A DNA stretch of 64,000 bases. Origin: Caulobacter sp. (GTDB lineage Bacteria > Pseudomonadota > Alphaproteobacteria > Caulobacterales > Caulobacteraceae). A model generated the notes under the pieces. That model saw nothing but the letters and a program-made list of their open reading frames with translations, was not told where the DNA came from and did not search any database. Shown one piece after another: positions 1 to 23,728 of the stretch. Position 1 is the first letter of the stretch; the number at the start of each line of letters is the position of its first letter. The translations under genes and the position numbers were made by a program. The stretch lies in assembly GCA_028291055.1 (NCBI GenBank), contig JAQGIP010000032.1, positions 124,001-188,000 on the forward strand, written 5' to 3'.

Positions 1-1007
1 GCGTGGAAGTTGCCGCCGGAGAGGGCCTCGTCGGCCCCCCCCTCTTCCGAGGAGACGAAGATCAGGGGATTGTCGGACACCCCGTTGGCCTCGAAGGCCA
101 GGGTGGCCGCCGCCTGGCGCAGGATGTCGAGCGCGGCGCCCATCACCTGGGGCTGGCAGCGCAGGCAGTAGGGGTCTTGGACCCGGTCGTCATGGTCGGC
201 GTGACTGGCCCGGATGGCCGAACCGGCCATCAGCTCGCGCAGGGCGTCGGCGGCCTCGATCTGGCCGGGCTGGCGGCGCAGGACATGGATGCGGTGGTCG
301 AAGGGGGTGTCGGAGCCCTTGGCCGCCTCGGTGGACAGCGCCCCGGTGACCAGGGCCGAACGGAACAGGACCTCCGCCTCGAACAGGGCCGCCAGGGCGT
401 TGGCGGTGGAGAACTGGGTGCCATTCAGCAGCGCAAGGCCCTCCTTGGGGCCGAGGATGAGCGGCTCCAGACCCGCCTGGGCCAGCGCGTCGGCGGCGGC
501 CACGCGCGCCTCGCCGACGAACATCTCGCCGACGCCGATCATCGTGGCCGCCATATGGGCCAGCGGCGCCAGGTCGCCCGAGGCGCCCACCGATCCCTTG
601 GCCGGGATGACGGGGGTCAGGCCCTTGGCCAACAGGGCTTCCAGCAGGGCGATGGTAGCCGGCGCGACGCCGGAGGCGCCCTGGGCCAGGCTGGCCAGCT
701 TCAGCGCCAGCATCAGCCGCACGATGGGGACCGGCGATGGCTCGCCCACCCCGGCCGCGTGCGACAGCACGATATTGCGCTGCAGGGCCGCCAGGTCACA
801 GGCCTCGATGCGCACGCTGGCGAGCTTTCCGAACCCGGTATTGATTCCGTAGACCGGTTCGCCCCGGGCCAGGATGCGCGCCACCGCCGCCGCGCTTTCC
901 GCGATGGCCGGCCCGGCCTCGGGCGACAGCCGCACGGCGCCGCCGCGATAGATCGCCCGCCACTGCGCCAAACCGACCTCGCCGGGATGCAGCACCACCT
1001 GGTTCAT
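1..1007 (-). CDS. hutH: Histidine ammonia-lyase, C-terminus cut off by window edge
   Basis: HutH removes ammonia from L-histidine to give urocanate, the first step of cytosolic histidine degradation. The minus-strand frame starts at the ATG whose complement is 1005-1007 and stays open to base 1, giving about 335 residues of a family usually near 510. The N-terminus reads [11 protein letters not shown], followed by [12 protein letters not shown] and the diagnostic [15 protein letters not shown], whose Ala-Ser-Gly forms the MIO prosthetic group. The start overlaps the hutI stop as ATGA, so the two genes are translationally coupled. The ORF track misses this gene because it has no stop inside the window; track entries at 3..1058 and 214..852 are antisense shadows. 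Confidence 0.95.
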
Positions 1008-2200
1008 CCCAGTCCTCCGAAAACCCGGGCATGCAGCGGGTTGAAGCCCATGCGGTAGACCAGCTCGGCCGGCCGCTCGATATCCCAGATGGCCAGGTCG
1101 CAACGCTTGCCGGCCTCCAGCGTCCCGATCTCGGCCCCTAGTCCCAACGCCCGCGCCGCCTCACGCGTCACCCCGGCCAGGCATTCCTCCACGGTCATCC
1201 GAAACAGGGTCGCGGCCATGTTCATCGCCAGCAGCGGCGAGGTCAGGGGCGAGGTGCCCGGGTTGCAGTCGGTGGCCAGCGCCATCGGCACGCCCGCCGC
1301 GCGCAGGGCCGCGATCGGCGGGGCCTGGGTCTCGCGCACGAAATAGTAGGCGCCGGGCAGCAGGGTCGCCACCGTTCCGGCCCTGGCCATGGCGGCGACG
1401 CCGGCCTCGTCGAGGTGTTCCAGATGGTCGGCCGACAGCGCGCCGAACTCGGCGGCGAGGGCGGCGCCGTGCAGGTTGGAGAGCTGTTCGGCGTGGAGCT
1501 TGACCGGCAGGCCGTGGGCGCGGGCCCCCTCGAAGACGCGGCGGGTCTGGGCGGGGGTGAAGCCGATGCCTTCGCAAAACGCGTCGACCGCATCGGCCAG
1601 GCCCTCGGCGGCCACGGCCGGCATCATCTCGCGGCAGACCAGGTCGATATAGCCGTCGGGATCGCCGGCATATTCCGGCGGCAGGGCGTGGGCGCCCAGG
1701 AAGGTCGTACGGATCGTCACCGCCCGGCGTTGGCCAAGCTCACGGGCGGCGCGCAGGGATTTCAGCTCGTCCTCCAGCGACAGGCCGTAGCCGGACTTCA
1801 CCTCCACGGTGGTCACCCCCTCCGCGATCAGCGCGTCCAGGCGCGGTAGCGCCGAGGCGACCAGCGCCTCCTGGCTCGCCGCGCGCGTCGCGGCCATGGT
1901 CGAGACGATGCCGCCGCCGGCCCGGGCGATCTCCTCATAGGAAGCCCCCGCCAGCCGCAGCTCGAACTCCCGCGCCCGGTCTCCCGCGTGAATGAGGTGG
2001 GTGTGGGGATCGATCAGCCCGGGGGTGATCCAGCGGCCTTCGCAGTAAAGCGTCTCGCCGCCCTCGAAGCCCGGCGCCTCGCCCGCCGCGCCGGCGTAGA
2101 CGATCCGGCCGTCGCGCGCGGCGATGACCCCGTCCTCCACCAACCCCGCGCCGGCCATGGTCGCCAAGCGGGCGTTTCGCCAGATCCGGTCGCAGCGCAC
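1004..2200 (-). CDS. hutI: Imidazolonepropionase
   Basis: HutI hydrolyses 4-imidazolone-5-propionate to N-formimidoyl-L-glutamate. Amidohydrolase-fold metal and substrate motifs are visible: [25 protein letters not shown] and [10 protein letters not shown]. The track ORF begins at 2368, but the extension has no family likeness and crosses the hutF promoter. I chose the GTG at 2198-2200 (protein [14 protein letters not shown]), which has a GGGAGA ribosome site just upstream and gives 398 residues, the usual family length. It is first in the minus-strand operon hutI-hutH and diverges from hutF across 82 bp. hutU and hutG are not in the window and may lie to the left. Confidence 0.93.
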
Positions 2201-2246
2201 GGACTCTCCCTTTCGATGACGGGGAGAGTTGGCCAAGCCCGCGATA

Positions 2247-2258
2247 ATGTCTAGACAT
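2247..2258. promoter_or_regulatory. Palindromic HutC-type operator between hutI and hutF
   Basis: A perfect 12-bp palindrome, ATGTCTAGACAT, lies between the divergent starts of hutI (2200) and hutF (2283). Its TGTNTANACA-like core matches what is known of GntR-family HutC operators, and hutC itself is the second gene of the plus-strand operon. Control of both transcription units is inferred from position and symmetry. Confidence 0.7.
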
Positions 2259-2282
2259 AATGCCTCAGCTCGGGAGACGCCC

Positions 2283-3641
2283 ATGTCGTCGCTATGGTTC
2301 GAACGTACTCTGGTCGGCGAAACCTGGGCGGACCGGGTGCGGCTCACCCTCGACGGCGGCCTCATCACCGGGATCGTCGCGGGGGCTGACCCCGAACCGG
2401 AAGACGAGCGTCACGCCACCGCCATTCCCGGCCTCAGCAACGTCCACAGCCACGGCTTCCAGCGCGGCATGGCCGGCCTCACCGAATATGGCGGCGCGGC
2501 CCAGGACGATTTCTGGAGCTGGCGGGAGCTGATGTACCGCTTCCTCGACCACCTCGACCCGGACGACGTCGAGGCGATCACCGCCCAGGCCTATGTCGAG
2601 ATGCTGCAGACCGGCTTCACCCGGGTCGGCGAGTTCCACTATCTGCACCACGACCCGGCCGGCCACCCATATGGCGACCTGGGCGAGATGGCCGGGCGCA
2701 TCGCCGCCGCCGCCGCCGCCACGGGCATCGGCCTGACCCTGCTTCCGGTCCACTACGCCCACGGCGGCTTCGGCGGCGCCCCCGCCGCGCCGGGCCAGCG
2801 GCGGTTCCTGAACACGGTCGATGCGTTCGCCGCGCTCTACGACCGCAGCCGGGCGGCGATCGCCGCCCTGCCCGACGCCAATCTCGGTGTGGCCCCCCAC
2901 AGTCTGCGGGCGGTGACGCCTGATGAACTGCGCGATGTCGTTAGCCTGGAGCCTACCGGACCCATCCACATCCACGCCGCCGAACAGGTGCGCGAGGTCT
3001 CCGACTGCATCGCCTGGTCGGGACGCCGCCCCGTGCAGTGGCTGCTGGACGAGATGGCGCTCGACCAACGCTGGTGCCTGGTCCACGCGACCCACTTGGA
3101 CTCCTCCGAGGTCGAGCGGCTCGCCGCCAGCGGTGCGGTCGCCGGCCTCTGCCCGGTGACCGAAGCCAATCTCGGCGACGGCATCTTTCCCGCGCAGGCC
3201 TACCTCGCCGCGTCCGGCGCCATGGGCATCGGCACGGACTCCAACATCCTCATCGACCCCGCCCAGGAACTGCGGATGATCGAATATGCCCAGCGCCTCA
3301 CCCTGCGCGCCCGCAACGTCCTGGGCTCTGACCGACCATCGACCGGCGCAAGGCTCTTCGTGAAGGCCCTCACCGGCGGAGCCCAGGCCCTCGGCCAGGC
3401 GAGCCACGGCCTCAACATCGGGGCCAGCGCCGACATCGTCTCCCTGGCGGCCGATCACCCCTCGACCTTCGGACGGCAGGGCGACGCCCTCCTCGACAGC
3501 TGGATCTTCGCCGGAACGGCCGGGGTCGTGGACACCGTCTGGCGGCGCGGCGCGAAGGTCGTGGTCGAAGGCCGCCACCACCAGGCGGACGCCGTCGCGG
3601 CGCGCTATCGCCGGACCCTGCGCAAGTTGCTGGCCGCATGA
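2283..3641 (+). CDS. hutF: Formimidoylglutamate deiminase
   Basis: HutF deiminates N-formimidoyl-L-glutamate to N-formyl-L-glutamate and ammonia, the first half of the two-step route that bypasses formimidoylglutamase. The amidohydrolase motifs [14 protein letters not shown] (metal-binding), [19 protein letters not shown] and GIGTDSN are in the right order over 452 residues. The track start at 2229 is rejected: the ATG at 2283 has CGGGAGA seven bases upstream and starts with the family-like [10 protein letters not shown]. The stop overlaps the hutC start (ATGA), so the two genes form an operon downstream of the shared operator. Confidence 0.93.
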
Positions 3642-4360
3642 TCTCCAAGCCCCCCGGCCTTGAGCGGCGCATCCGGGCCGAGCTTGAGGCGAAAATCCGC
3701 GCCGGAGACTGGCCCCCCGGTCACCGCCTTCCGACCGAAGCGGTGCTGATGGCCGACTACGGCTGCGCGCGCATGACCGTCCACAAGGCCATCCAGGGCC
3801 TGGTCGGCGAGGGCCTGGTGGTGCGCAACAAGAAGGCCGGCACGCTCGTCGCCAAGCCGCATGTGGTGACCGCCGTGCTCGAAATCCCCGACATCGCCGC
3901 CCTGATCACCGACCGGGGCGAGACCTACGCCTTCAAGCTGCTGTCGCGCGACATCGCCGATGCATCGCCGGACAACCCGGACGAGCGCGCCCTGGGCGCC
4001 GACGGCCGCCTGCTGATCCTCAAGGGCCTCCACATCGCCGACGGTGAGCCGTTCGCCTTCGAGCGCCGCATCCTCAACCTCGCCGCCACCCCCGAGGCCG
4101 AGGCCATCGATTTCAGCCACACGCCCCCCGGATCGTGGCTGCTCAACCACGTGCCCTGGTCGCAGGCCCGCCACCGGATCACCGCCGTCCCGGCCGACGC
4201 GTCCACCGCGCGGCTGCTGCATCTGCCGCCCCAGGCCGCTTGTCTCCAGGTCGAACGCTGGACCTGGCGCAACAGCCAGGGCGTCACCTTCGTGCGCCAG
4301 GTCTTCCCGGGCGACCGCTACGACCTCGTGGCGGAATTCTCCCCCTCGGCGGAGCCGTAG
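3638..4360 (+). CDS. hutC: Histidine utilisation repressor, GntR family (HutC)
   Basis: A 240-residue GntR/HutC regulator that normally represses hut genes until urocanate binds. The N-terminal winged helix-turn-helix spans about residues 8-75, with RLPTEAVLMADYGCARMTVHKAIQGL as the DNA-reading segment. The rest is a UTRA ligand-binding domain containing FAFERRILNL and a C-terminal VRQVFPGDRYDLVAEF. The start overlaps hutF by ATGA. The palindrome at 2247-2258 is the obvious target, which would give autoregulation together with control of hutIH. The next gene begins 72 bases downstream under a different operator. Confidence 0.92.
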   Translation: MISKPPGLERRIRAELEAKIRAGDWPPGHRLPTEAVLMADYGCARMTVHKAIQGLVGEGLVVRNKKAGTLVAKPHVVTAVLEIPDIAALITDRGETYAFKLLSRDIADASPDNPDERALGADGRLLILKGLHIADGEPFAFERRILNLAATPEAEAIDFSHTPPGSWLLNHVPWSQARHRITAVPADASTARLLHLPPQAACLQVERWTWRNSQGVTFVRQVFPGDRYDLVAEFSPSAEP

Positions 4361-4432: not shown

Positions 4433-6157
4433 ATGCTCCTCACACCGCTGCGACTGCTGTCGGTCCTCCTGCTTTCGGCGATCGCCGCGCAACCGACGCC
4501 CGTGACCATCGCCGCCCTGCCGCCCGCCGCCGTCGCGGGCCGCGGCGCCCACGTCCCCTTCACCGAATATGAGGCGGAAGCCGCCGCCACCAACGCCGAC
4601 ATCATCGGGCCCGAGCGCACCTTTACCACCCTGGCCGCGGAAGCCTCCGGCCGCCGCGCGGTGCGCCTGAGCCGACCCGGCCACTATGTCGAATTCGTCC
4701 TGGCCGCCCCCGCCGACGCCATCACCCTGCGCTACGCCCTGCCCGACAGCGCCGACGGCAGGGGGCTGGACAGCCGCATCGTCCTCTACGCCGAGGGCCG
4801 CCGGCTCGGCGCCCTGTCCCTCACCTCGCGCTACAGCTGGCAGTACGGCGCCTACCCCTTCACCAACACGCCCGCCGACGGCAAACCCCACCACGCCTAT
4901 GACGAGGCCCGGCTGCGACTGGACCGCGACCTGCCCGCCGGAACCCGCGTGCGGCTCGTGCTGGAAGACCCCGTCCCCTGGCTGGTCGTCGACGTCGCCG
5001 ACTTCGAGCGCGTCGGTCCGCCCCTGATGCCGCCGCCGAACGCCCTGTCCATCCTCGCCTTCGGCGCCGACCCCACCGGCCGCAAGGACAGCGCCGGCGC
5101 CATCGACGCCGCCATCGCGGCGGGCCGCCGCGCGCACCGCCCGGTCTGGATCGACCCGGGCCGCTATCGGGTCACGCGCCACATCGTCGTCGACCAGGTC
5201 ACCCTGGCCGGGGCCGGCCCCTGGTATTCCGTGCTGCAGGGCGACGGCGTCGGCCTCTATGGCCGCAAGGCGCCCCACGGCAGCCACGACGTCCACCTGC
5301 GCGACTTCGCCATCCTCGGCGAGGTGCGCCGCCGCATCGACAAGCAGCAGACCGCCGGCGTCGGCGGGGCCATGAGCCGCTCCACCCTCACCAACCTGTG
5401 GATCCAGCATACCAAGGTGGGCGTGTGGTTCGACGGCCCGATGTCGGACATCACCATCACCGGCCTGCGCGTCCTCGATCAGGCCGCCGACGGCCTCAAC
5501 TTCCACCGCGGCGTCACCGACGCTCTTGTCGAAGATAGTTTCGTGCGCAACTCCGGCGACGACGGCCTGGCCGCCTGGTCGCACCATGCCGAGAACGCCC
5601 GCATCGTCTTCCGCCACAACACGGTGATCGCGCCCATCCTGGCCAACGGCATCGCCCTCTACGGCGGGCGCGATCTCACCGTCGAGGGCAACTTGGTGGC
5701 CGACACCGTGACCGAGGGCGGCGGCTATCACCTGGGCGCGCGCTTCTCGGCCACCCCCTTCGCGGGCCGGATCACCTTCCTCCACAACACCGCCGTGCGC
5801 GCCGGCGTCCTGGACCCCAACTGGCGCGTCGGCATCGGCGCCTTGTGGATCTACGCCCTCGACCGCCCCATCACCGGCGCCGACATCCGCATCGAGGACA
5901 TGGTCCTGATCGACAGTTCCTACGAGGCGATCCAGGTCATCGGCCGGCCGATCACCGGCCTGGCCTTCCGCCACATCCGCATCGAGAACGCCGGCTCCTA
6001 CGCCCTGCAGCTGCAGGCCCCCGGCGCGGCCAGTTTCGACGATGTGGTGGCCGCGGGCCTGGGCCTCGGCGGCGTCCACGACTGCGGCTCGGGCTTCACG
6101 CTCACGCGCGGGGTGGGAAACACCGGCTGGGACACCACCCTGTGCCCGGCGCCCTGA
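4433..6157 (+). CDS. GH87-like alpha-1,3-glucanase (mycodextranase type), secreted
   Basis: A 574-residue protein with a signal peptide (LLSVLLLSAIAAQP), a beta-sandwich carbohydrate-binding module of CBM35 type (about residues 40-200, FTEYEAEAA) and a right-handed parallel beta-helix. The helix part carries segments I recognise from GH87 alpha-1,3-glucanases: IQHTKVGVWFDGPM, ADGLNFHRGVT, NSGDDGLAAW (adjacent Asp 376/377, candidate catalytic residues), ILANGIALYGG and GVLDPNWRVGIGALW. It would cleave alpha-1,3-linked glucan outside the cell or in the periplasm. It has its own operator just upstream and converges with the halogenase operon, the two stop codons abutting as TGATCA. The exact linkage specificity is not proven. 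Confidence 0.8.
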   Translation: MLLTPLRLLSVLLLSAIAAQPTPVTIAALPPAAVAGRGAHVPFTEYEAEAAATNADIIGPERTFTTLAAEASGRRAVRLSRPGHYVEFVLAAPADAITLRYALPDSADGRGLDSRIVLYAEGRRLGALSLTSRYSWQYGAYPFTNTPADGKPHHAYDEARLRLDRDLPAGTRVRLVLEDPVPWLVVDVADFERVGPPLMPPPNALSILAFGADPTGRKDSAGAIDAAIAAGRRAHRPVWIDPGRYRVTRHIVVDQVTLAGAGPWYSVLQGDGVGLYGRKAPHGSHDVHLRDFAILGEVRRRIDKQQTAGVGGAMSRSTLTNLWIQHTKVGVWFDGPMSDITITGLRVLDQAADGLNFHRGVTDALVEDSFVRNSGDDGLAAWSHHAENARIVFRHNTVIAPILANGIALYGGRDLTVEGNLVADTVTEGGGYHLGARFSATPFAGRITFLHNTAVRAGVLDPNWRVGIGALWIYALDRPITGADIRIEDMVLIDSSYEAIQVIGRPITGLAFRHIRIENAGSYALQLQAPGAASFDDVVAAGLGLGGVHDCGSGFTLTRGVGNTGWDTTLCPAP

Positions 6158-7675
6158 TCAGGCCGGCGCCGTCGCCGACGCGCAGTTTCGCTCGATGAAG
6201 TCCTGGTGCGTCGGCATCCCCCGCACCCGCTCGACGATGCCGCCCCGGATCGCCGACAGCCGCAGCTTCAGCTCATCCTCGGCCACAACATCCGCCATCG
6301 GGTGATAGTCATCCGGCATGATCCCCTGGCCATAGAGGATGGCGAACCAGTTCACCTCCTTGAACAGCTCATGGTTCTCCACGAACACCTCGCCGCGCGA
6401 CTTAAACAGCTCCAGCCGGTCGGCCAGGCTGTCGGGCACGCTCATGTTCTTGCAATAGGCCCAGAACGGCGTGTCCTCCCGCTCGGTCACCTTGTAGTGG
6501 GCGATGATGAAGTCGCGGATCGAGGCATAGTCCTGGCTCATCTCCCTGTTGAACCGCGCCACCATCAGCGGATCGACGCCGTTCTTCGGGAACATGGCCA
6601 GCAGCTTGGAAATCCCCACCTGGACCATGTGGATGCTGGTCGATTCCAACGGCTCCAGGAACCCGCTCGACAACCCCAGCGCCAGGCAGTTCTTCACCCA
6701 CGAGGCTTTGCGCTGCCCGGTCACGAACTTCAGGATGCGCGGATCCGCCAGCGCCGCCCCATCCAGCCGCTGGGTCAGCAGGGTGGCCGCCTCATCCTCG
6801 CCGATGAAGTCGTTGCAGAAGACATAGCCGTTGCCCGTGCGGTTCTGCAGCGCGATGCGCCACTGCCACCCTGCCTCGCGCGCTGTCGAGCGGGTCAGCG
6901 GAACCGGCTCCTCCACCCGCGCGCACGGCATGGCCGCGGCCCGGTTGACCGGCAGCCACCGGCTCCAGTCGTCATAACCGGCGTGCAGCGTCTCCTCGAT
7001 CAGCAGCCCCCGGAAGCCGGAGCAGTCGATGAAGAAGTCGCCGCGCACCTCGCGCCCGTCCTTCAGGGTCACCGAGGTGATGAAGCCGCTCTGCGGATCC
7101 TGCGCCACCGACGTCACCTGCCCCTCGGTGCGCACCACGCCGCGCTTCTCGGCATAGCGGCGCAGGTAGGCGCCGTAGAGGCTGGCGTCGAAATGGAAGG
7201 CATAGTTGATCTTCGGCAGGTTGGCCGGCTTGGCCTCCGGCGTGCGCATGAACCTGCCCGCCAGCGCCGCCTGCGCCTCCGCTGAAAACTTCAGATTGTC
7301 CGGGTCGCCGCCCGCCTTCACCCAGCGCAGCCAATAGTGGGAGAAGTTGATGCCCCCCGCATCCACCCCCATCAGCCCGAACGGGTGCAGATAGCGGTGG
7401 CCGATCCGCCCCCAGTCGCGGAACTCGATACCCAGCTTGAAGGTGGCGTTGGTCTCGCGCACGAACTCGTTCTCGTCGATCCCCAGCACCGAATTGAACA
7501 GCTGGATGATCGGGATGGTCGCCTCCCCCACCCCCACCGTGCCGATCATGTCGGACTCGATCAGGGTGATCGAATAGCGCTGCGTGCCCATCACCTTCGA
7601 CAGCGCCGCCGCCGCCATCCACCCGGCGGTGCCCCCGCCGACGATGACGATGTTCCTGATCACCGGACCGGCCAT
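6158..7675 (-). CDS. Tryptophan 7-halogenase-like flavoprotein (copy 1, variant motif)
   Basis: A 505-residue member of the Trp_halogenase family, FADH2-dependent enzymes that halogenate aromatic rings. It keeps the nucleotide motif GGGTAGW, the catalytic lysine (K80 in NATFKLGIEFRDW) and the EPLES glutamate region. The signature WxWxIP reads WQWRIAL, with Ala replacing Pro. It is last in a tightly overlapping three-gene set (stop/start overlap at 7675). Such genes are common beside TonB receptors in Caulobacter and Xanthomonas carbohydrate loci, where no natural product cluster is present and the true substrate is unknown. It may be a halogenase, as shown for some relatives, or a flavin oxidoreductase of different purpose. 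Confidence 0.85.
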   Translation of the reverse strand: MAGPVIRNIVIVGGGTAGWMAAAALSKVMGTQRYSITLIESDMIGTVGVGEATIPIIQLFNSVLGIDENEFVRETNATFKLGIEFRDWGRIGHRYLHPFGLMGVDAGGINFSHYWLRWVKAGGDPDNLKFSAEAQAALAGRFMRTPEAKPANLPKINYAFHFDASLYGAYLRRYAEKRGVVRTEGQVTSVAQDPQSGFITSVTLKDGREVRGDFFIDCSGFRGLLIEETLHAGYDDWSRWLPVNRAAAMPCARVEEPVPLTRSTAREAGWQWRIALQNRTGNGYVFCNDFIGEDEAATLLTQRLDGAALADPRILKFVTGQRKASWVKNCLALGLSSGFLEPLESTSIHMVQVGISKLLAMFPKNGVDPLMVARFNREMSQDYASIRDFIIAHYKVTEREDTPFWAYCKNMSVPDSLADRLELFKSRGEVFVENHELFKEVNWFAILYGQGIMPDDYHPMADVVAEDELKLRLSAIRGGIVERVRGMPTHQDFIERNCASATAPA

Positions 7676-9180
7676 CAGTAGAGGGCGTTGGTGCGCGGCT
7701 GGGCGGGGCGCAGTTGGCTTTCCAGCGCCGGCATGGCCTTCACCTCCTGCGCGATGAAGCTCAGCATCCGCTTCAGCTGCATCACCTGGTCGTCGTGGGC
7801 CAGCATGTCGACCAGCGGGTCATAGGCCCGGGGCATCAGCCCGTGACCGATGAAGATCGAGGCCCAGTTCGAGGCCTGGAAGGCCTCGTCGTCATAGAGG
7901 GCGACCGCGCCGCGCGCCGAAAACAGCTGCATCTTGTAGTCCAGCGTCGGCGGCAGGCTCATCTCGCGCGCCCGGTCCCAGAAGGGCTCGTCGCGCCGCT
8001 GGTTCAGCCGGTAGTGGGCGATCTGGAAGTCGCGGATATTCTCGGCATGGCGCGCCAGGCCGGCGTTATAGACCCCCGCCTCCAGCATATGGTCCGCATC
8101 CACGGGGAAGAAGGAGATCAGGTGCGACAGCCCCGTCTGCACGATGTGCAGGCTGACTGCATCCAGCGGCTCCAGCGCCACCGCCGTCTCGCCGATGGCC
8201 ACGCAGTTGCCGATCCAGGGCCGGGGCCGATAGCCGGGCGCCAGCGCCGAGGCCACCGCCTCGCCCTGCAGCCGCATGCCGGTCAGCACCGGCAGGGTGT
8301 TCAGCATCTCCCCGTCCGACAACTTGCCGCTGTCGTAACAGGCGACGATGGCGGTGCGGTCCTGCAGCGGATAGAGGCCGATCCAACCGGCCTGGAAGGC
8401 GGCGATCTGCGCATAGGCCGGCAGCGGGTCCAGCCGCTGGCCCGACGCCGTCAACATCCGGTCGCAGGCCAGCCACCGGCTCCAGCTTTCGAAGCCGTCG
8501 CCGGGCATATGGCGCATCAGCACCGCCTCGGCTCCTGACGCATCGACGAACAGGTCGGCCTCGACGGTGCGCCCGTCCGCCAGGGTGATCGAGGTGATCC
8601 GCTCGCCCTCGACCTTCACCGCCCCCACGCCGCCGGCCATCACCGTGACCCCGGCCCGCAACGCCCGTTGCTTGATCATCGCCACATAGGCCACGGCGTC
8701 GAACTGATAGCCATGCGCCGGCCGCGAGAAGCTGTCGGAGACGTCGGCGTCCAGCTCGATACGCCCCTGCTTGGCCATGGTCGCGCCCAGGGAAAAGTCG
8801 TCGAAGGCGATGGCCAGGCCTTCGCCGCGCGCCTTCACCCAATATTGCAGCAGGCTGACGTTGTTGAGCCCGATCGGCTGGGTGTCATAGGCGTGCACGA
8901 AGGGCGCGCTGCCCCCCGACCAGTTGGCGAACCGCTGGCCCAGGCAATAGACGCCCGCGCAGGCCGCCACCGCCTCGCGCTCGTCCACGCCCAGCAGCCC
9001 GTGCAGGCCGCCCAGGGTCGGCAGGCTCGGATAGACGTCCACCGGCGACAGCATCGAGGGCAGTTCGACCACCGTCACCGCCACCCCCGTGCGCCCGAAG
9101 GCGTAGCGCAGCCCGAAGGCCGTCAACCAGGCCGCCGCGTCGCGGCCCACCACCACCACCGTGTTCACCGGCCGGCTCAC
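7675..9180 (-). CDS. Degenerate tryptophan-halogenase-like protein, probable pseudoenzyme (copy 2)
   Basis: An intact 501-residue ORF of the same family and length as its two neighbours, but with the functional motifs lost. The FAD-binding GGGTxGW is VVVGRDAAAW, the catalytic lysine is Cys79 (YCLGQRFANW in place of FKLGIxFRDW), WxWxIP is gone (AGWIGLYPLQ) and EPLES is EPLDA. The fold-level landmarks LQYWVKARG, DLFVDASG and the C-terminal IFIGHGLMPRAYDP remain. It starts with GTG overlapping the previous stop as GTGA, and its own stop overlaps the next start. The intact frame and coupled translation suggest it is retained, perhaps as a binding partner of the other two; catalysis by the known mechanism is unlikely. 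Confidence 0.82.
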   Translation of the reverse strand: MSRPVNTVVVVGRDAAAWLTAFGLRYAFGRTGVAVTVVELPSMLSPVDVYPSLPTLGGLHGLLGVDEREAVAACAGVYCLGQRFANWSGGSAPFVHAYDTQPIGLNNVSLLQYWVKARGEGLAIAFDDFSLGATMAKQGRIELDADVSDSFSRPAHGYQFDAVAYVAMIKQRALRAGVTVMAGGVGAVKVEGERITSITLADGRTVEADLFVDASGAEAVLMRHMPGDGFESWSRWLACDRMLTASGQRLDPLPAYAQIAAFQAGWIGLYPLQDRTAIVACYDSGKLSDGEMLNTLPVLTGMRLQGEAVASALAPGYRPRPWIGNCVAIGETAVALEPLDAVSLHIVQTGLSHLISFFPVDADHMLEAGVYNAGLARHAENIRDFQIAHYRLNQRRDEPFWDRAREMSLPPTLDYKMQLFSARGAVALYDDEAFQASNWASIFIGHGLMPRAYDPLVDMLAHDDQVMQLKRMLSFIAQEVKAMPALESQLRPAQPRTNALY

Positions 9181-10718
9181 GCGCCCACCTCCACGCGGGC
9201 CGGCGGCGCCGTCACGGCGCTGGGCGAAGGGCAGTAGTCGCGCACGAAGTCGTCGTGGCTGGGCATGGCGTCCACGCGGGTCTGGATACGCCCGCGCAGT
9301 TCCTCCATCCGCCCGATCAGGTCGGTGAACTCCATATTGTCGGCCAGCCGCTCATAGCCGTCCGGCACGACCCCCTGCCCGACCAGCACCGCCAGCCAGC
9401 TGGACGGCGCGAACAGGCCGTCCTTGTAGGCTTCGATGTGGCCGCGATGCTTGAAAATCTTCAGCTTGTGCTTGAGGCTGTCGGGCACCTCCATGTTGCG
9501 GGTGTAGCGCCAGAGCTCGGAATCATCGCGGCTGTTGGCGTGGTAGTGCAGGATCAGGAAGTCGCGCACCCGGTCGTATTCGACGTCCACCAGCCGGTTG
9601 AATTCGGCGGCCAGAACCGGGTCGAACGGAACGCGCGGAAACAGCCGGATCAGGTTCATCACCGCCACCTGCACCAGATAGATGCTGGTGGACTCCAGCG
9701 GCTCCAGGAAGCCGCTGGCCAGGCCGATGCCGATACAGTTCTTGAACCAGCTGTGCGTGCGCCGTCCGGCCTTGAAGCGCAGCATGCGCGGATCGGCCTG
9801 GGCCTTGCCGTCCAGGTTGGCCAGCAGGGTGGCGTGGGCCTCGTCCTCGCTGATGAAGCTTGAGGAGAAGCAGTAGCCGTTGCCCGTGCGGTGCTGCAGC
9901 GGGATGCGCCACTGCCAGCCGCCCTCGCGCGCCGTGGAGCGGGTATAGGGGTGGAAGTCCTCCGAGCGTTCGCAGGGCACGGCCCAGGCCCGGTCGCAGG
10001 GCAGCCATTTGCTCCAGTCCTCGAACGGAACCTCCAGCGTCTGGCCCATCAGCAGCGAGCGGAAGCCCGAGCAGTCGATGAACAGGTCGCCGGCGACGAC
10101 CTCCCCGGACTTCAGCGTCACCGAGGCGACGTTGCCGCTCTCGCCGTCCCGCGTCACGTCCACCACCATGCCTTCGGTGCGCACCACCCCGCGCGCCTCG
10201 GCGAAGCCGCGCAGGTATTTGGAATAGAGGTGGGCGTCGAACTGGTAGGCGTAGCTATAGGTGGCGTTGATGACCTTGGGGTCCTTGGCCGGGAACTCGA
10301 AGCGGTTGGTCCGGCAGGCCACGATCGGATAGCTGAAATCGTCCAGGTCGAAGGCGTGGCCGTTCTGGCGCGCCTTCACCCAGTGATGGTGGAAGGCCAC
10401 CCCCGACAGCGGCTGGCCGTGCTTGCCGAAGGGGTGGTTGTAGCGGCTGCCCTTGAAGCCCCAGTCGCGGAAGTCGATGCCCAGTTTGAAGGTGGCGTTG
10501 GAGGCCGCCATCATCTCCGGCTCGATGATGCCGATGGCCTCGTTGAAGTCGCGCATCTGCGGCAGCGTGGCCTCGCCCACGCCGACGATGCCGATCTCGT
10601 CGGATTCGATCAGCCGCACGCGGCAGATATTGGGCTTCAGCACGCCCACCAGGGCGGCGGCGCTCATCCAGCCGGAGGTGCCCCCTCCCACGATGACGAC
10701 GTCCAGCGGCTTGGCCAT
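9177..10718 (-). CDS. Tryptophan 7-halogenase-like flavoprotein (copy 3, canonical motifs)
   Basis: A 513-residue flavin-dependent halogenase-like protein with all motifs intact: GGGTSGW for FAD, catalytic K78 in NATFKLGIDFRDW, the WQWRIP signature in place of WxWxIP, and EPLESTS. It would need reduced flavin from a separate reductase, none of which is encoded nearby. It is first in the three-gene set and lies 353 bp behind the TonB receptor gene on the same strand. The start has GGAG eight bases upstream. Context points to a role in carbohydrate acquisition and not in antibiotic synthesis; this is inference. Confidence 0.88.
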   Translation of the reverse strand: MAKPLDVVIVGGGTSGWMSAAALVGVLKPNICRVRLIESDEIGIVGVGEATLPQMRDFNEAIGIIEPEMMAASNATFKLGIDFRDWGFKGSRYNHPFGKHGQPLSGVAFHHHWVKARQNGHAFDLDDFSYPIVACRTNRFEFPAKDPKVINATYSYAYQFDAHLYSKYLRGFAEARGVVRTEGMVVDVTRDGESGNVASVTLKSGEVVAGDLFIDCSGFRSLLMGQTLEVPFEDWSKWLPCDRAWAVPCERSEDFHPYTRSTAREGGWQWRIPLQHRTGNGYCFSSSFISEDEAHATLLANLDGKAQADPRMLRFKAGRRTHSWFKNCIGIGLASGFLEPLESTSIYLVQVAVMNLIRLFPRVPFDPVLAAEFNRLVDVEYDRVRDFLILHYHANSRDDSELWRYTRNMEVPDSLKHKLKIFKHRGHIEAYKDGLFAPSSWLAVLVGQGVVPDGYERLADNMEFTDLIGRMEELRGRIQTRVDAMPSHDDFVRDYCPSPSAVTAPPARVEVGA

Positions 10719-11071: not shown

Positions 11072-14000
11072 TCAGTATTTCATCCGGATCCCGAAGACGA
11101 TCCGGCGATCGTTCTGGAACCAGCTGCCGGGGCGAAGATTGCCGCCGCCGATGTTGGAGTCCGTGGTCTGTTGCAGCAGGATCGTGCGGGTGTTCAGCAG
11201 GTTGCTGCCCTGCAGGCTCAGCTCGACATTGTCGCTGACCCGGAAGCGGATCGACCCGTCGAGGAAGCCGGCCTCCTTCTGCCACATGGGCAGATAGATG
11301 CAGCAGTCGACCGCCGTCACCAGGAACTGCGAGCGCCAGTTGTAGGCCAGGCGAAGCGCCCAGGGGCCCTTCTCGTACATACCCACCAGGTTGTAGGAGG
11401 TCTTCGACAGCCCCTCCAGCGCATCGACCTGCAGCGCGGTGCCGTTGGTGCCCGGCTGGGGTGTGGCCCCAGACGCGCTGCCCGACGCGGTCTTCAGGTT
11501 GGCGTTGGTGATGCCGGTGTTGTCGACATAGGTGAAGTTGGCCTGCACCCCCAGCCCGCTCCAGGCCCCCGGCAGGAAGTCGAAGAAGCGCTGGTAGGCC
11601 ACTTCGAAGCCCTTGAGGCTGGCGCCGTCGCCGTTCATCGGCCCGCGGACCTGCACCGAACGGGTCACCCCGTTGGCGGTGACGTCGCGGTTGTAGAAGC
11701 CGTATTGGATGTAGTCCTCGAACTTCTTGTAGAACAGCGCGATCGAGAAGCTGCCCACGTCGCTGAAGTAGTATTCCAGCGAGATGTCGAACTGGTCGGC
11801 CGTGGTCGGCTTCAGGCTCGGGTTATAGCCGTCCGCCGTATAGGTCGGGTTGACCCCCGTCACCACGCCGCCCGTCTTGATGTAGCGCGGGTCGGAGATG
11901 TCCTGGGGCCCGGGGAAGGAGGTGGAGATGTTGATGTAGTTCTTCAGCAGCCCGATGTCGGGCCGCGACATGGCGCGCGACGCGGCGAAGCGCAGCACCC
12001 ACTGGTCGTTCAGGTCGAGCTTCAGGTTGAAGCTGGGCAGCCAGTTGCGATGGGTGGTGTCCACCGTGCTGCTGGCGCCGCCGCCCTGGTTGAAGGCGAT
12101 GTCCTGGGCCGACAGGTAGCAGCCGACGGTGCCCGGAATAGCGGGCGCGGGCGCCGGCGGCACGGTCGGAATGGGCGTGCAGGCCAGGGTCGAGGGCGAG
12201 AAGGGCGTCGGATAGGCCACCGAACCGGTGCTCGAGTCCTTGGTCTCGACGTAGCGGACGCCGACGTTGCCCGAAACCCGGATGCTGCCCCAGGTCGCTT
12301 CGGGGCCGCCGAACTTCAGCATCGCGTAGATGGCCTTGGTCTTCTCCTCCACGTGGTTCACTTCCACGGGCAGGTAGCAGCCTTCCGTCTCCCCGGTCCG
12401 CGTGCAGATCGGGTGCCACTGGTCCTGGCCCACGCCCAGGTTGGCGTAGCTCAGCGCGTCGGCGCCGTGCGCCGCCAGCTTGTCCATGTTGAAGAAGACG
12501 AAGTCGCGCGCCGCGCCGCCGAAGAAGTCGCCGCCGCCGAACGAGCGCACGTCATACAGCCCCTGCGGATAGCCGGTGAAGGCGCCGTTGGCCGTGTGCT
12601 TGTCGATGTTCCAGAAGACGTTCTGGTGCGCGCTCAGGTTCCAGTCGTTGGCGATATTGGCCCAGTTGAAGGTCGAATAGCGCACCGTCTGATCGCGGTC
12701 GGAGTAGCGCACCCCCACCTTCAGGCTGTCCATCCAGGTCGAGTGGAACAGGTACTGGGCGTCGGCGCGGATCGCGAACTCGTCACCCTCGCTGTTCTCG
12801 CGATGGTCCATCGCGTGGTTGTAACGGTAGTTGTCCGGATTGCTCAGGCCGCCCGGCGACTGGTTGATATTGGTCGGCGTCAGCAGCGTCATGCGCGGCA
12901 GGTCGCCGGTGGCGTCCAGCTTCAGGTCGGCGAAGGAATACTGGCCGACTTCGATGTCATAGTTCTCGACCGTGGAGTGGACCTTCTGGATGTCGGCGTT
13001 GAGCTTCCAGTTGTCGTTGGGGTTCCATTTGAGATTGATGGCCCCGTCTTCGGTCATGTTTTCGTTGTGGTTGTAGCGGGTGACCGCATTCACGTCCGGC
13101 CCGCGCCCGTCGATGGCGCAGGTGCCCTGCCAGACGTAACAGGGATGCAGCATCGACTGGCCGCTGGAGTTCAGCGCGATGTCGGCGGAGTCCGCGTCGG
13201 AGGCGCCCCACCAGCCGTTGTCCGTCTGCACGACGGTCATCACGCCGGTCTGGAAGTTGCCCTGCTGGTCGAAGGTGAAGGCGGGCGTGCCCAGGGCCGG
13301 TCGCGGCGCGGCCTGCGGCGTGGCGCCGGCGCCGTAGACGAAGCGCACGTCCTTGGCGAACATGTCGATGGGGTAGCTGATGACCCCATTTTCCTTCCAG
13401 GTGTTCTCATAGGTGGAGCGGTTGTACTGGCCGGTGACCAGCAGCTTGCCGCTCGGGTCCTGCCACTGGGCGGAGAAGGCCATGCCGTTGCGGACCCGGT
13501 CATAGGTCGTCACGCGCTGCGCCACGCTGGAAGGGATGTACTTCAGGCCCGGGCCATAGAGGCCGTCGAGCACGGCCATGCGGCCGTACTGGATGCCCTG
13601 CGACTGGGTCTCGACTTCCGAATAGGCCAGGTTGCCCATCAGGCCCACGTCGCCGAAGGGGGTTTCCCAACGGTCGCTGAGGATCATCGAGCCTTCGGGG
13701 GTGAACTTCTTCGACAGGTCGCCGTAGTTGCCGTTGATCCCCACCGAGAACAGGTGGCCGGAGCTGTCGAACGGCACCCGCGTGCGCAGGTTGACCGTGC
13801 CGGCGATGCCGCCCTCGATCAGTTCCGCCGTCTGGTTCTTGTAGGTGTCGACCCCGGCCATCAGCTCGGGCGAGACGTCGCCCCAGCCCAGGCCGCGCGA
13901 GGAGTTGGCGCTGAAGGTGTCGCGGCCGTTGAATTCGTTGCGGACCTGCGACAGGCCCCGCACCAGCACGCCGGAGGGTTCAGCCGAGAAGTGGGAGGTG

Positions 14001-14329
14001 TCGTCGCTGGCCGCCAGGCGGTTGACGGTGATGCCGGGCACCCGTTGCAGGGCCTCGGCGATGGACTTGTCGGGGAAGGCGCCGATGTCCGTGGCGGTGA
14101 TGGTGTCGACCACCGTGTCGGAGCTGCGCTTCAATTGCTGGGAGGTCTTCAGCGAGGCGCGGACCCCGGTGACCACCACTTCGTCGACGGCCGTGTTGTC
14201 GTTCGGCGCGTCGTCCCTGGCCAGGGCCAGCGACGGGGTCAGGGCCATCGTGGCGCCCGTCAGCACCAGCACCGAAGCGCCGTACCTCAGCGCCCGGCGC
14301 CACGACATCTTGTCAGCCGACATATTCAT
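11072..14329 (-). CDS. TonB-dependent receptor, large Caulobacter/Xanthomonas type
   Basis: A 1085-residue outer-membrane receptor that would import glucan oligosaccharides using TonB energy. It has a signal peptide (VLTGATMALTPSLALA), a TonB box region DEVVVTGVRASL, a plug domain (IAEALQRVPGITVNR, GVLVRGLSQVRNEFNGR, IAGTVNLRTR) and a beta-barrel ending in the aromatic terminus GIRMKY. This is the architecture of the TonB-Xanth-Caul group. GGGAGGG precedes the ATG at 14329. A LacI-type operator lies about 150 bp upstream. It is followed, after a hairpin, by three halogenase-like genes. The 1227-aa plus-strand ORF across it is a codon-bias shadow. Confidence 0.93.
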   Translation of the reverse strand: MNMSADKMSWRRALRYGASVLVLTGATMALTPSLALARDDAPNDNTAVDEVVVTGVRASLKTSQQLKRSSDTVVDTITATDIGAFPDKSIAEALQRVPGITVNRLAASDDTSHFSAEPSGVLVRGLSQVRNEFNGRDTFSANSSRGLGWGDVSPELMAGVDTYKNQTAELIEGGIAGTVNLRTRVPFDSSGHLFSVGINGNYGDLSKKFTPEGSMILSDRWETPFGDVGLMGNLAYSEVETQSQGIQYGRMAVLDGLYGPGLKYIPSSVAQRVTTYDRVRNGMAFSAQWQDPSGKLLVTGQYNRSTYENTWKENGVISYPIDMFAKDVRFVYGAGATPQAAPRPALGTPAFTFDQQGNFQTGVMTVVQTDNGWWGASDADSADIALNSSGQSMLHPCYVWQGTCAIDGRGPDVNAVTRYNHNENMTEDGAINLKWNPNDNWKLNADIQKVHSTVENYDIEVGQYSFADLKLDATGDLPRMTLLTPTNINQSPGGLSNPDNYRYNHAMDHRENSEGDEFAIRADAQYLFHSTWMDSLKVGVRYSDRDQTVRYSTFNWANIANDWNLSAHQNVFWNIDKHTANGAFTGYPQGLYDVRSFGGGDFFGGAARDFVFFNMDKLAAHGADALSYANLGVGQDQWHPICTRTGETEGCYLPVEVNHVEEKTKAIYAMLKFGGPEATWGSIRVSGNVGVRYVETKDSSTGSVAYPTPFSPSTLACTPIPTVPPAPAPAIPGTVGCYLSAQDIAFNQGGGASSTVDTTHRNWLPSFNLKLDLNDQWVLRFAASRAMSRPDIGLLKNYINISTSFPGPQDISDPRYIKTGGVVTGVNPTYTADGYNPSLKPTTADQFDISLEYYFSDVGSFSIALFYKKFEDYIQYGFYNRDVTANGVTRSVQVRGPMNGDGASLKGFEVAYQRFFDFLPGAWSGLGVQANFTYVDNTGITNANLKTASGSASGATPQPGTNGTALQVDALEGLSKTSYNLVGMYEKGPWALRLAYNWRSQFLVTAVDCCIYLPMWQKEAGFLDGSIRFRVSDNVELSLQGSNLLNTRTILLQQTTDSNIGGGNLRPGSWFQNDRRIVFGIRMKY

Positions 14330-14763
14330 CCAACTTCCCTCCCAGAAGGGCGGCGCTTCTCGGACGCCGGCCCCAACGTGTTGTTTCCCCCTCGGGCGCC
14401 CGCTCTAGTGGCGGCCACCTCCGGTAGTATCGGCCGGATCATCTGAAGGTCCGCCGCCCTTGGGGGAGGCCTTCAAACTTTCCGACAGCGCTGTCATTTC
14501 GGGTCAGAAAAAAAGGGGACGCCTTTGCGTCACTGCCCCTTAACCCCTGGCCCTCCCCTTCGAGCTTTGAAACATTAGTACGGACGAGTCTCCGATCCCG
14601 CCAGCCCCTTTCGACGGATCAGGGAAAGAATCTTCACCCCGACAGGAACGCCGTGTCATTTTCGACACTAGTTTGTCACTCCGCCCCTTTGATCCAGACG
14701 ATGCTATGTTATCGGACTTCCGGCGCATAGTTGTTCTCCTCCCTCTGGGGCCCAGTGCTGCTG
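14330..14763. other. Divergent control region between TonB receptor and cupin-8 gene
   Basis: 434 bp with no gene. It contains the LacI-type operator at 14483-14496. Nearer the cupin gene are additional TGTC/GACA dyads: GTGTCattttcGACAC at 14653-14668 and GACActagttTGTC at 14664-14677, sharing one arm. These might be sites for another regulator or mutually exclusive foldings; they differ from the LacI consensus. Confidence 0.5.
14483..14496. promoter_or_regulatory. LacI-type operator upstream of TonB receptor
   Basis: CGACAGCGCTGTCA contains the perfect 12-bp palindrome GACAGCGCTGTC and matches the GH87 site read on the other strand. It sits 154 bp before the receptor start and 268 bp before the cupin gene, so it may act on both. 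Confidence 0.75.
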
Positions 14764-15783
14764 ATGACAGAACCGATGACGCCCATCCGCGAGTGGACCA
14801 ACGTAACGCCCCAGGTATTCCACGACCAAATCCTGCCTGTGGGACAACCGGCGGTATTCAAGAGTTTTGTTGCAGACTGGCCCGTGGTGGCGGCCGCGCG
14901 CCAGTCGCCGGCCGCGCTCAGCGCCTATCTGAAGCGTTTCGACAGGGGCGCCAGCGTGCCGACCTTGCTGGGCCCGCCGAAAATCAACGGCCGCTTCTTC
15001 TACAACCATGACATGAGCGGGTTCAATTTCCAGCAGGGCAGCGCACGCATCGGCGCGGCCCTGGACTTCCTGCTGGCGCGGCTCGACGAAGAGCCGCCGC
15101 CCGCCTTCGCCATCCAGTCCGCGCCCATCCGGGGCTGCATGCCGGGATTCGAGGCCGAAAACCGGCTGACGCTGCTGGACCCGGCCATCGAGCCCCGCGC
15201 CTGGATCGGCAACCGGGTGATCGTCGCCGCCCATCACGACCAGTCCGAGAACATCGCCTGCGTCGTCGCCGGCCGACGCCGCTTCACCCTCTTCCCGCCC
15301 GACCAGGTGGCCAACCTCTACATGGGCCCCTTCGAACTGACCCCCGCCGGGGCCACCATCAGCATGGTCGACTTCGACGCCCCCGACCTGGGCCGCTACC
15401 CCAACTTCCCCCAGGCCCTGGACGCCGCCGTGGTCGCCGACCTCGAGCCCGGCGATGCGATCTACATCCCCTATCTGTGGTGGCACCACGTCCGCTCGAT
15501 GGACCGCCTCAACATGCTGGTGAACTACTGGTGGGCTCCGAGGGCCCCCGGCCGCCCTGAACCGAGAGAAGCCTTCGTCCACGCCATCGTGGCCTTGCGC
15601 GACCTGCCCAAGGCCCACCGCGAAGCCTGGCGCGCCATGCTGGCCCACTACGTCTTCCAGGATGAAGGCCCCGCCCCCGGCGCCCACCTGCCCAAATCCA
15701 GCCAGGGCATCCTCGGCGACCTCGATCCCCAACTGCTGCGCGAGATCAGAACCTCCCTCGCCCGCTCGCTAGGGAGGTCGTAA
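14764..15783 (+). CDS. Cupin-8 / JmjC-like putative Fe(II)/2-oxoglutarate oxygenase
   Basis: A 339-residue cupin-like protein of the Cupin_8 (Pass1-related) family. The double-stranded beta-helix region shows the metal-binding HxD (HHDQSENIACVV) followed by GRRRFTLFPP and a distal histidine in PYLWWHHV; together these form the 2-His-1-carboxylate iron site of hydroxylases. The N-terminal WTNVTPQVFHDQIL and PAVFKSFVADWP are typical of the family. The track start (TTG 14731) is not supported; ATG 14764 or 14776 is likely. The gene is divergent from the receptor and typical of TonB-receptor sugar loci with halogenases, where its target is unknown. Confidence 0.83.
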   Translation: MTEPMTPIREWTNVTPQVFHDQILPVGQPAVFKSFVADWPVVAAARQSPAALSAYLKRFDRGASVPTLLGPPKINGRFFYNHDMSGFNFQQGSARIGAALDFLLARLDEEPPPAFAIQSAPIRGCMPGFEAENRLTLLDPAIEPRAWIGNRVIVAAHHDQSENIACVVAGRRRFTLFPPDQVANLYMGPFELTPAGATISMVDFDAPDLGRYPNFPQALDAAVVADLEPGDAIYIPYLWWHHVRSMDRLNMLVNYWWAPRAPGRPEPREAFVHAIVALRDLPKAHREAWRAMLAHYVFQDEGPAPGAHLPKSSQGILGDLDPQLLREIRTSLARSLGRS

Positions 15784-16119
15784 TGGGGCGGTCCTCCCCA
15801 GGCGAGCCTGCAGCGAGCCGGTTGGGGAGGTGGTCCGACGGACCGGAGGGGTTTACCGACTCCCCGACTAGCCACGTTCTGGCGCAACCGCCCAACGACG
15901 GCACAAATCCCCACCGCCAAAACACGCCCACCCTTAGGCCCAGTAAACCCCTCCCTCCCTTCGGGAGGACCTCCCCGGCCGGGCCGCTTGGGCGGCCCTG
16001 GGGAGGCGACGCGCGGATCCCCGTTACCCACCCACCGCATTGACACCCGCCGTCCAAGCCTGCGTATTTCGCGCGAACTCGCGGCGCCCGATCACTCGGC
16101 ACATGCCCCTGGAGCCCTC
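15784..16119. other. Intergenic region with inverted repeat before GH97 gene
   Basis: 336 bp between the cupin-8 stop and the GH97 start. Its main feature is a long imperfect inverted repeat (see 15845-15954) made of GGGGAGG-rich blocks. The small track ORFs here are repeat-driven shadows. No LacI operator is present, so GH97 is either read through from the cupin gene or has an unseen promoter. Confidence 0.5.
15845..15954. repeat. Inverted repeat, arms GGAGGGGTTTAC / GTAAACCCCTCC
   Basis: Perfect 12-base arms lie at 15845-15856 and 15943-15954. The similarity continues outward imperfectly through GGGGAGGT blocks for roughly 30 bases per arm, enclosing an 86-base centre. This could fold as one long cruciform or RNA hairpin, or be a decayed mobile repeat unit of the kind found between alphaproteobacterial genes. 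Confidence 0.6.
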
Positions 16120-20786: not shown

Positions 20787-22358
20787 ATGATGGGTAAATT
20801 CCTGATCGAGCGGAACAAGCTGGCCGCCTTCTGGCTCGGCTGCGCCGCGGTCACGGCCGGGGTGCTGCTGCACCTGCCGATGTTCCTGATGGCCCGCGAC
20901 ATGGGTTACCAACTGGCCGGCATGGAGATGGACAACGGCATGCTGGCCGGCATGGGCCTGATCGTGCTGGGCATCGCGCTGACCGCCTACGGCCTGCTGC
21001 CGTCCGCCGCCATCCGCCACAACGACCCGCACCTGAAGATGAGTCCGTCGGAGGAGGCGCCCCTCACCTCGGCCCACTGGCAGCTCATGGCCGTGCTGGT
21101 GGTGGCCCTGGTGGTGGACGTGATGAAGCCGGCCAGCCTGGGCTTCGTGGTGCCGGGCATGCGCGCGGAATACGGAGTCTCCAAGGCCTTCGTGGCCTGG
21201 CTTCCGTTCACCGCCCTGTTGGGCACCTTCGTGGGCTCCATCGTCTGGGGCGTCCTGGCCGACATCTACGGGCGGCGCGCCTCGATCCTGCTGTCGGCCA
21301 TCATGTTCGTGGGCACCTCAATCTGCGGGGCCATGCCATCGTTCAACTGGAACGTCATCATGTGCTTCCTGATGGGCGCCGCGGCGGGCGGGCTGCTGCC
21401 GGTGGCCTATGCCCTGCTGGCCGAGGCCATGCCGTCCAAACACCGCGGCTGGAGCCTGGTCATGGTCGGCGGCCTGGGCGCGGCGGGCGGCTATCTGGCG
21501 GCCAGTTCGCTGTCGGCGGTGCTGCAGCCGCTGTTCGGCTGGCGCATCATGTGGTTCCTCAACATGCCCACCGGCCTGCTGCTGATCGCCATGAGCGGCA
21601 TCATCCCCGAGTCCGCCAAGTTCCTCATGCAGAGCGGCCGGGTGGCCGAGGCTCGGGCCATCCTCAAGCGCTTCGGCTCGGTGCTGGTCCCTGTGACCGA
21701 AGCGACGATCGCCCGCGCCGCCATCGAAACGACCGGCGCCCACGTGGCCCGCAAGAGCGTCATCCTCTCCATCGTCGGCGTGACCTGGAGCCTGATCAAC
21801 TTCGGCATCCTGCTGTGGCTGCCCGCCGACCTGGTGGCCAAGGGCGCCAGCATCGGGCTGACCAGCAAGCTGCTGGCCCAGTCGGCCCTCATCGCCCTGC
21901 CCGCCGTGCTGCTGGCGGCGCTGCTCTACAGCCGCTGGAGCACCAAGGGTGCGCTGGCCGCCATGATGACGGTGTCGGGCCTGGGCCTGCTGGGGCTGAT
22001 CTTGATGGATACGCCCATCGCCGGCGTCACCCTGGGCCCGGTCCTTCCCGTGGCCCTGCTGATCTTCGGCAGCAACGGCATGCTGGCGGTGCTGCTGCCC
22101 TATACCGCCGAGCTGTTCCCGCTGCGGGTGCGCGGGCGCGCCACCGGCCTGGTGGCCGGCTGCACCAAGTTCGGAGGCCTGATCGCCCAGGGCCTGGGCC
22201 TGCTGGCCCTGATCCCCGCGCTCAGCGTCGCCGCCTGGAGCGTGGTCGCCCTGCTGGCCGTCTGCGTGGCCCTGATCAGCCTCTATGGCGAGGAGACGCG
22301 TGGGCGCGACCTGCGCGACATCGACGGCGAGCCGCTCGGCCTGCCCGCCGAGGCCTAA
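20787..22358 (+). CDS. MFS transporter, metabolite:H+ symporter type
   Basis: A 523-residue inner-membrane carrier of the major facilitator superfamily with 12 core membrane helices and two additional N-terminal ones (residues about 12-35 and 50-72). The loop 2-3 motif is ADIYGRRASILL, and PESAKFLMQSGRVAEA is typical of sugar or organic acid porters. GGGGG precedes a double ATG start. It follows GH3 by 25 bp and probably imports glucose or a short glucoside. The stop overlaps the stop of the convergent GH5 gene by two bases. The solute is inferred only from context. Confidence 0.8.
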   Translation: MMGKFLIERNKLAAFWLGCAAVTAGVLLHLPMFLMARDMGYQLAGMEMDNGMLAGMGLIVLGIALTAYGLLPSAAIRHNDPHLKMSPSEEAPLTSAHWQLMAVLVVALVVDVMKPASLGFVVPGMRAEYGVSKAFVAWLPFTALLGTFVGSIVWGVLADIYGRRASILLSAIMFVGTSICGAMPSFNWNVIMCFLMGAAAGGLLPVAYALLAEAMPSKHRGWSLVMVGGLGAAGGYLAASSLSAVLQPLFGWRIMWFLNMPTGLLLIAMSGIIPESAKFLMQSGRVAEARAILKRFGSVLVPVTEATIARAAIETTGAHVARKSVILSIVGVTWSLINFGILLWLPADLVAKGASIGLTSKLLAQSALIALPAVLLAALLYSRWSTKGALAAMMTVSGLGLLGLILMDTPIAGVTLGPVLPVALLIFGSNGMLAVLLPYTAELFPLRVRGRATGLVAGCTKFGGLIAQGLGLLALIPALSVAAWSVVALLAVCVALISLYGEETRGRDLRDIDGEPLGLPAEA

Positions 22359-23422: not shown

Positions 23423-23728
23423 GGCAACCCTCCCGAACGGCCCTCTCAAACGGGGCCTCGCCAAAAAGAAGGGCGGCCGAAGCCGCCCCCTCAGTGCCCG
23501 CTCGCAAGGACGGCGGGAATGCGCATGCCACGGACCGGGAAGCAGGAGGAGAGGCGCTTCCAAGGGCAAGAACGGCCCGCGACATCGCCACCAGAACCCA
23601 ACGGCCGGGCAGACGCAAGCGAAAATTGACAACGCTGTCATACAAGCGGGACGATTTGCGCCTAGGCTGCGGCTGCCCGTTGCGGTGAAGCGGCTGGGCG
23701 GATACTCCGGAGAGGCGAACTTTGCGCC
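23423..23728. other. Divergent control region between GH5 and lacI-type gene
   Basis: 306 bp without a gene. The only clear element is the operator at 23627-23640. Base composition is lower in GC just around the operator (GAAAATTGACAAC), as expected for a promoter area. Confidence 0.5.
23627..23640. promoter_or_regulatory. LacI-type operator at the regulator gene
   Basis: TGACAACGCTGTCA, identical to the GH3 operator. It lies 88 bp before the TTG start of the LacI regulator and would give autoregulation; it may also control the divergent GH5 gene. Confidence 0.75.

Follow-up and report, generated by a model that had tools for sequence, protein, structure and literature searches.

Three adjacent genes with a Trp_halogenase domain (PF04820) lie on the minus strand of the window, the whole 64,000-nucleotide stretch of Caulobacter sp. 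DNA that was analysed, and these are the only three PF04820 genes in the whole genome. Read along the minus strand, the array consists of a TonB-dependent receptor (TBDR) followed by FDH1, PSEUDO and FDH3. The genes of the array and its surroundings are listed below.

4433..6157 (+), alpha-1,3-glucanase-like beta-helix protein (CatAgl; PF22815/PF22816), convergent with the array
6158..7675 (-), FDH3 (position 3), motif-bearing flavin-dependent halogenase (PF04820, 629 bits)
7675..9180 (-), PSEUDO (position 2), motif-stripped halogenase homologue (open reading frame, PF04820, alignment of 26 orthologues)
9177..10718 (-), FDH1 (position 1), motif-intact flavin-dependent halogenase (PF04820, 622 bits; GGGTSGW, K78, WQWRIP, EPLEST)
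11072..14329 (-), TBDR, directly upstream of the halogenase array (TIGR01782, 627 bits)
14731..15783 (+), Cupin_8 (JmjC-like) protein, divergent from the TBDR (PF13621)
15988-18183 (+), GH97 (Pfam)
18305-20761 (+), GH3 (Pfam)
20787-22358 (+), MFS sugar transporter (Pfam)
22355-23998 (-), GH5 (Pfam)

FDH1 has all halogenase motifs, and FDH3 keeps them save for WQWRIA in place of WQWRIP. The stop codon of FDH1 overlaps the start of PSEUDO by 4 nt (GTGA, 9177-9180), and the stop codon of PSEUDO overlaps the ATG of FDH3 by 1 nt (TGATG, 7675). With GH97, GH3, GH5, the alpha-1,3-glucanase-like protein, the sugar MFS transporter and Cupin_8, the surroundings of the array look like a carbohydrate-uptake locus. 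A Cupin_8 homologue was found in 15 of the 21 loci with 20 kb of context, the window counted, and the gene may belong to the halogenase system. Inspection by eye revealed no obvious signal peptide in FDH1 or PSEUDO; a cytoplasmic substrate is therefore likely.

PSEUDO encodes 501 aa from a GTG start with zero internal stops. The Pfam profile matched residues 8-461 with 325 bits, as compared with 622 and 629 bits for the flanking genes. An earlier note had described a motif-stripped gene between two motif-bearing paralogues, and the open reading frames, the Pfam matches and the aligned motifs bear this out. The FAD motif, GGGT(A/S)GW in both neighbours, is GRDAAAW in PSEUDO and no longer conforms to GxGxxG. 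The segment with the catalytic lysine, NATFKLGIEF in the neighbours, reads AGVYCLGQRF, which places Cys79 at the lysine site. GWQWRI(A/P)L is replaced by GWIGLYPL, leaving WIGLYP where WxWxIP is expected, and EPLEST is replaced by EPLDAV, a conservative change of Glu to Asp at 340 together with Ser-Thr to Ala-Val. That note had reported each of these losses correctly, along with the retained length, frame and overlap with both neighbours. An additional loss that it did not mention was found in the GEATxP segment, PVDVYPSLP versus VGVGEATIP. In total, five motifs have been lost: GxGxxG, GEATxP, WxWxIP, the catalytic Lys, and Glu, Ser and Thr of EPLEST. The catalytic Lys corresponds to K79 of PrnA, and we take the second Glu of EPLES to be the catalytic residue that corresponds to E346 of PrnA. 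PSEUDO belongs to PF04820 by sequence and fold, and it lacks four features that define active flavin-dependent halogenases; it should therefore not be filed as a halogenase.

The AlphaFold (AF2) model of PSEUDO has a mean pLDDT of 91.2 and a pTM of 0.90, and its predicted full-length PF04820 fold matches known halogenases. Foldseek gave TM values of 0.92-0.94 to BrvH (0.92) and Xcc4156, the best PDB matches being BrvH (Brevundimonas BAL3, 6FRL), a Pseudoalteromonas halogenase (9LUQ) and Xcc4156 (Xanthomonas campestris, 6Y1W). BrvH and Xcc4156, which resemble PSEUDO in fold and size at about 28-32% identity, are flavin-dependent halogenases with open sites, and for BrvH and the Xanthomonas halogenases the native substrates are reported to be unknown. 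As at the PSEUDO locus, another halogenase gene lies immediately upstream of BrvH, but BrvH keeps the GxGxxG, Lys and WxWxIP that PSEUDO has lost (PMC5945002). Likewise, Xcc4156 keeps residues matching the catalytic residues of RebH, whereas PSEUDO has lost them (PMC7336383). The tryptophan halogenases PrnA, RebH and PyrH share the PF04820 fold at 21-24% identity, but their cofactor and catalytic residues are absent from PSEUDO. The best partial NCBIfam match was to QhpG, a flavin monooxygenase of the same superfamily, at 33.9 bits (1.6e-08), far under the curated cut-off of 240 bits. Since the QhpG profile also matches both motif-bearing neighbours, the match reflects the shared fold.

A search of 149 Caulobacteraceae genomes with PSEUDO returned 35 matches of at least 334 bits in 31 genomes, the window's own counted. 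Below a gap, ordinary paralogues start at 285 bits; some matches under the gap, such as L163, are also divergent stripped forms. With one genome scanned per species, 80 loci were found, including some in Phenylobacterium, Brevundimonas, Asticcacaulis, Aquisalinus, Parvularcula, Sphingomonas, Niveispirillum and a few Gammaproteobacteria. The orthologues, present in 31 of the 149 Caulobacteraceae genomes, in further Alphaproteobacteria and in Gammaproteobacteria, are 37-59% identical to PSEUDO, and the 26-orthologue alignment showed full length across genera. The catalytic residues are lost in the whole orthologous clade of 52 members to which the window belongs. The Lys is absent from every member, with A, V, S, T, C or M in the sampled orthologues; the GxGxxG position carries GRD, GSD or GAG variants and the catalytic Glu position D, H, G, F or V. 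Most members share the new signatures LGQRF and (E/D)P(L/I)D. Two position-2 copies among the loci examined are split by frameshifts (L160:5905-7418 (-) and L123:5902-7451 (+)), with intact neighbours, from either sequencing error or recent loss.

Selection was estimated by the Nei-Gojobori method in 22 close pairs, which are not independent and among which five lineage pairs are given separately. The omega of PSEUDO ranged from 0.076 to 0.182 with a median of 0.149 (dS 0.17-0.57), and the medians for FDH1 and FDH3 were 0.086 and 0.126, so that PSEUDO is constrained, somewhat more loosely than its neighbours. Distant pairs were discarded because dS was saturated in these GC-rich genes. Mean pairwise identity is 44% for PSEUDO versus 61% for the neighbours. 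PSEUDO has an intact frame under purifying selection, the two frameshifted copies aside, and decay or sequencing error is rejected as the origin of the missing motifs on account of its intactness in many genera and an omega well below 1. The proposal of a retained pseudoenzyme stands up to these data: the orthologues show no neutral decay (dN/dS 0.08-0.18 in the 22 close pairs), loss is infrequent, with two frameshifted copies among the loci examined, and the fold is confidently predicted.

Forty positions at which at least 95% of 169 motif-intact relatives have one residue are released in the 52-member clade (within 13-17, 37-50, 79, 157, 180-182, 214-218, 242-258, 268-270, 277-279, 296, 308, 331-344 and 446), and 28 other invariants are kept. 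Many of the released positions fall in the FAD, GEATxP, Lys, WxWxIP and EPLES segments, and the pattern as a whole is more than chance. The kept invariants include Gly12, Trp18, Glu39, Asp213, Trp266 and Pro271; Asn325 is also kept. Outside the old motifs, Gln82, Arg118, Phe129 and Glu432 are newly conserved. Positions 13, 15 and 17 of the FAD motif and the Lys site vary within the clade (RASCG, AEIVP, LAVPC and STVAC, respectively). Since PSEUDO lacks two of the GxGxxG glycines, a normal FAD site is probably absent, though Glu39 and Asp213, presumably near the flavin, remain.

The three array positions form three separate clades, and the TBDR-linked array is colinear: active at position 1, stripped at position 2 and active at positions 3/4. 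In a mixture-model tree of 99 proteins with SH-aLRT support, position 1 (20 rows) was supported at 98, position 2 (46 rows) at 86 and positions 3/4 (30 rows) at 93; within position 2 the Lys-less part received 88 and the window clade 100. In FastTree, support was 1.0 for the 52-member window clade and 0.968 for a group uniting all Lys-less position-2 proteins. Because the Lys-less proteins group together in both trees (0.968; SH-aLRT 88), a single origin is favoured, though not proven, over convergent losses that arose independently in each lineage. The early-branching position-2 proteins (L112, L105, L094, L097 and L164-L166) keep the Lys, or Arg in L164, and have altered FAD or EPLES motifs. 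These forms may be intermediates, which suggests a stepwise erosion; the order of loss is uncertain because the deepest position-2 branch is moderately supported and some branches are long. Partly eroded homologues were seen at L164:9592-11079, L165:7707-9317, L166:7545-9146, L112:4439-5977 and near 7464 in L105. Two further position-2 homologues (L171:4721-6166 and L172:4996-6441) have GSGVAAW and a His at the Lys site and score low against the window clade; the position-1 gene of L172 has EPLKST instead of EPLEST. Extremely degenerate homologues adjoin position 1 in L202 and L203 (GAGQVGV / GDGQLGS and RLVSRY / RLVLRY).

The genomic pairing of PSEUDO with the upstream halogenase is stable and specific. 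A motif-intact halogenase lies directly upstream on the same strand in 51 of the 52 clade members, and the 52nd (L051) is at a contig end. A motif-intact halogenase lies directly downstream in 39 of 52, position 3 being absent from 13 arrays, and a TBDR is present in 50 of the 52 loci. The genes overlap or nearly abut across the PSEUDO loci. For 20 of the 21 position-2 genes sampled, the preceding gene belongs to a single position-1 clade; conversely, all members of this clade that the tree contains are followed by a position-2 gene. Reciprocal searches were started from FDH1 to avoid the bias of PSEUDO as starting point. Within the family, all 41 matches of at least 619 bits had a motif-eroded homologue as the next gene, which in one case is frameshifted (G114, L160); for part of these loci adjacency was read from match coordinates. 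In the order and class samples, which overlap partly with the family sample, 32 of 35 position-1-type loci were followed by an eroded homologue, including all 29 of at least 596 bits. The three exceptions are L204 and L206, with no eroded neighbour, and L211, with an intact gene. In L204 and L206 the position-1-type halogenase stands by a TBDR, and a second halogenase was not seen in the 1.5 kb flanks. The partial correlation of evolutionary distances was 0.62 for FDH1-PSEUDO versus 0.27 for FDH1-FDH3, which is weak evidence because a faster-evolving protein gives less noisy distances. A fusion of positions 1 and 2 was considered as a sign of contact and rejected, as the frames of about 1000 aa at the listed loci each had one halogenase domain.

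The Lys-less clade, the pairing, the purifying selection, the fold and the retained invariants support the reading that PSEUDO is an old, maintained, non-halogenating family member that serves as a dedicated partner subunit of FDH1, to which we assign a probability of roughly 0.55. The earlier note had suggested a structural or substrate-binding subunit; such a role may hold, and it is made likelier by the near-obligate pairing with one particular neighbour, the upstream halogenase, rather than with both. FDH1 and PSEUDO would form a heteromer in the manner of the homodimers seen in crystals of motif-intact family members, and the recurring family crystal dimer, found also in Xcc4156 crystals as in the tryptophan halogenases (PMC7336383), would offer a ready geometry. 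The stripped chain would not halogenate and, judged from its residues, would probably not bind FAD; it may shape the site of the active chain or hold the substrate. Together with the position-3 halogenase and Cupin_8, the FDH1-PSEUDO unit could modify a substrate tied to the carbohydrate-uptake receptor. Several points temper the partner reading. Colinearity of the array might instead be due to co-expression or to a pathway that the proteins share, Glu39 and Asp213 could leave room for nucleotide binding, Xcc4156 is possibly a monomer in solution (PMC7336383), support for the deep position-2 branch is moderate and its branches are long, and among the 35 position-1-type loci two are unpaired and one has an intact gene.

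A stand-alone non-catalytic protein, binding a TBDR ligand, a peptide or a small molecule as sensor, carrier or chaperone outside any complex, would account for a predicted fold kept around replaced pocket residues and for the new conserved residues beyond the old motifs. By itself, however, it fails to explain a near-constant upstream halogenase when position 3 is dispensable, and we regard it as unlikely. We find it quite unlikely that PSEUDO is a neofunctionalised flavoenzyme that binds FAD or another nucleotide differently and catalyses another reaction such as monooxygenation. The kept Gly12, Glu39, Asp213 and Asn325, the partial QhpG match and the loss of WxWxIP, a motif thought to suppress monooxygenase activity (PMC5945002), are in its favour, but positions 13, 15 and 17 and the Lys site vary freely, unlike a conserved new active site. 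Halogenation by other residues is very improbable: the change at 340 is conservative, but Lys is gone in all sampled orthologues along with the other motifs, and Lys and Glu are regarded as central to catalysis (PMC5945002, PMC7336383). A decaying duplicate retained solely through overlapping reading frames, which the faster evolution of PSEUDO and the two frameshifted loci might suggest, is barely credible given its low omega, full length across genera, clade-specific conserved residues and constant array slot across Alpha- and Gammaproteobacteria.

A wider form of the partner reading, that Proteobacterial TBDR-linked halogenase systems contain a heteromer of active and stripped paralogues with one origin, in the same array slot and eroded stepwise from Lys-retaining forms, is advanced tentatively, at somewhat under even odds. 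A loose parallel to the proposed pair is the type II polyketide KS-alpha / chain-length factor, in which a catalytically dead paralogue is paired with an active one. The two cases share adjacent genes, active and stripped paralogues, fixed order and an old pairing; fold and chemistry are unrelated, and the analogy is one of mode of action, not homology.

Among the openly licensed PMC papers searched, none dealt with halogenase pseudoenzymes or with arrays of TBDR-linked halogenases, a weak sign of novelty, and none described halogenase-fold proteins linked to carbohydrate uptake via a TBDR; halogenases are absent from the paper on the Xanthomonas carbohydrate-utilisation (CUT) locus (PMC1790865). 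The array of the window ties such proteins to carbohydrate uptake via TonB-dependent receptors. If the partner reading is true, a pair of active and dead paralogues would be added to a family studied as homodimers; under its wider form, assays of the active member alone would miss the native substrate. BrvH and the Xanthomonas halogenases were assayed as single proteins; a stripped partner encoded by the next gene would be a testable reason why such assays might miss their biology and could help to account for the lack of known natural substrates for BrvH- and Xcc-type halogenases.

Two minor observations were also made. In one Asticcacaulis-group genome the position-3 halogenase is split across two frames (L037:10734-12424). 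Adjoining the array in the window, positions 1004-4360 hold histidine-utilisation-type genes, namely a GntR/UTRA regulator and two amidohydrolases, of which one matches HutF_N and the other is probably an imidazolonepropionase.
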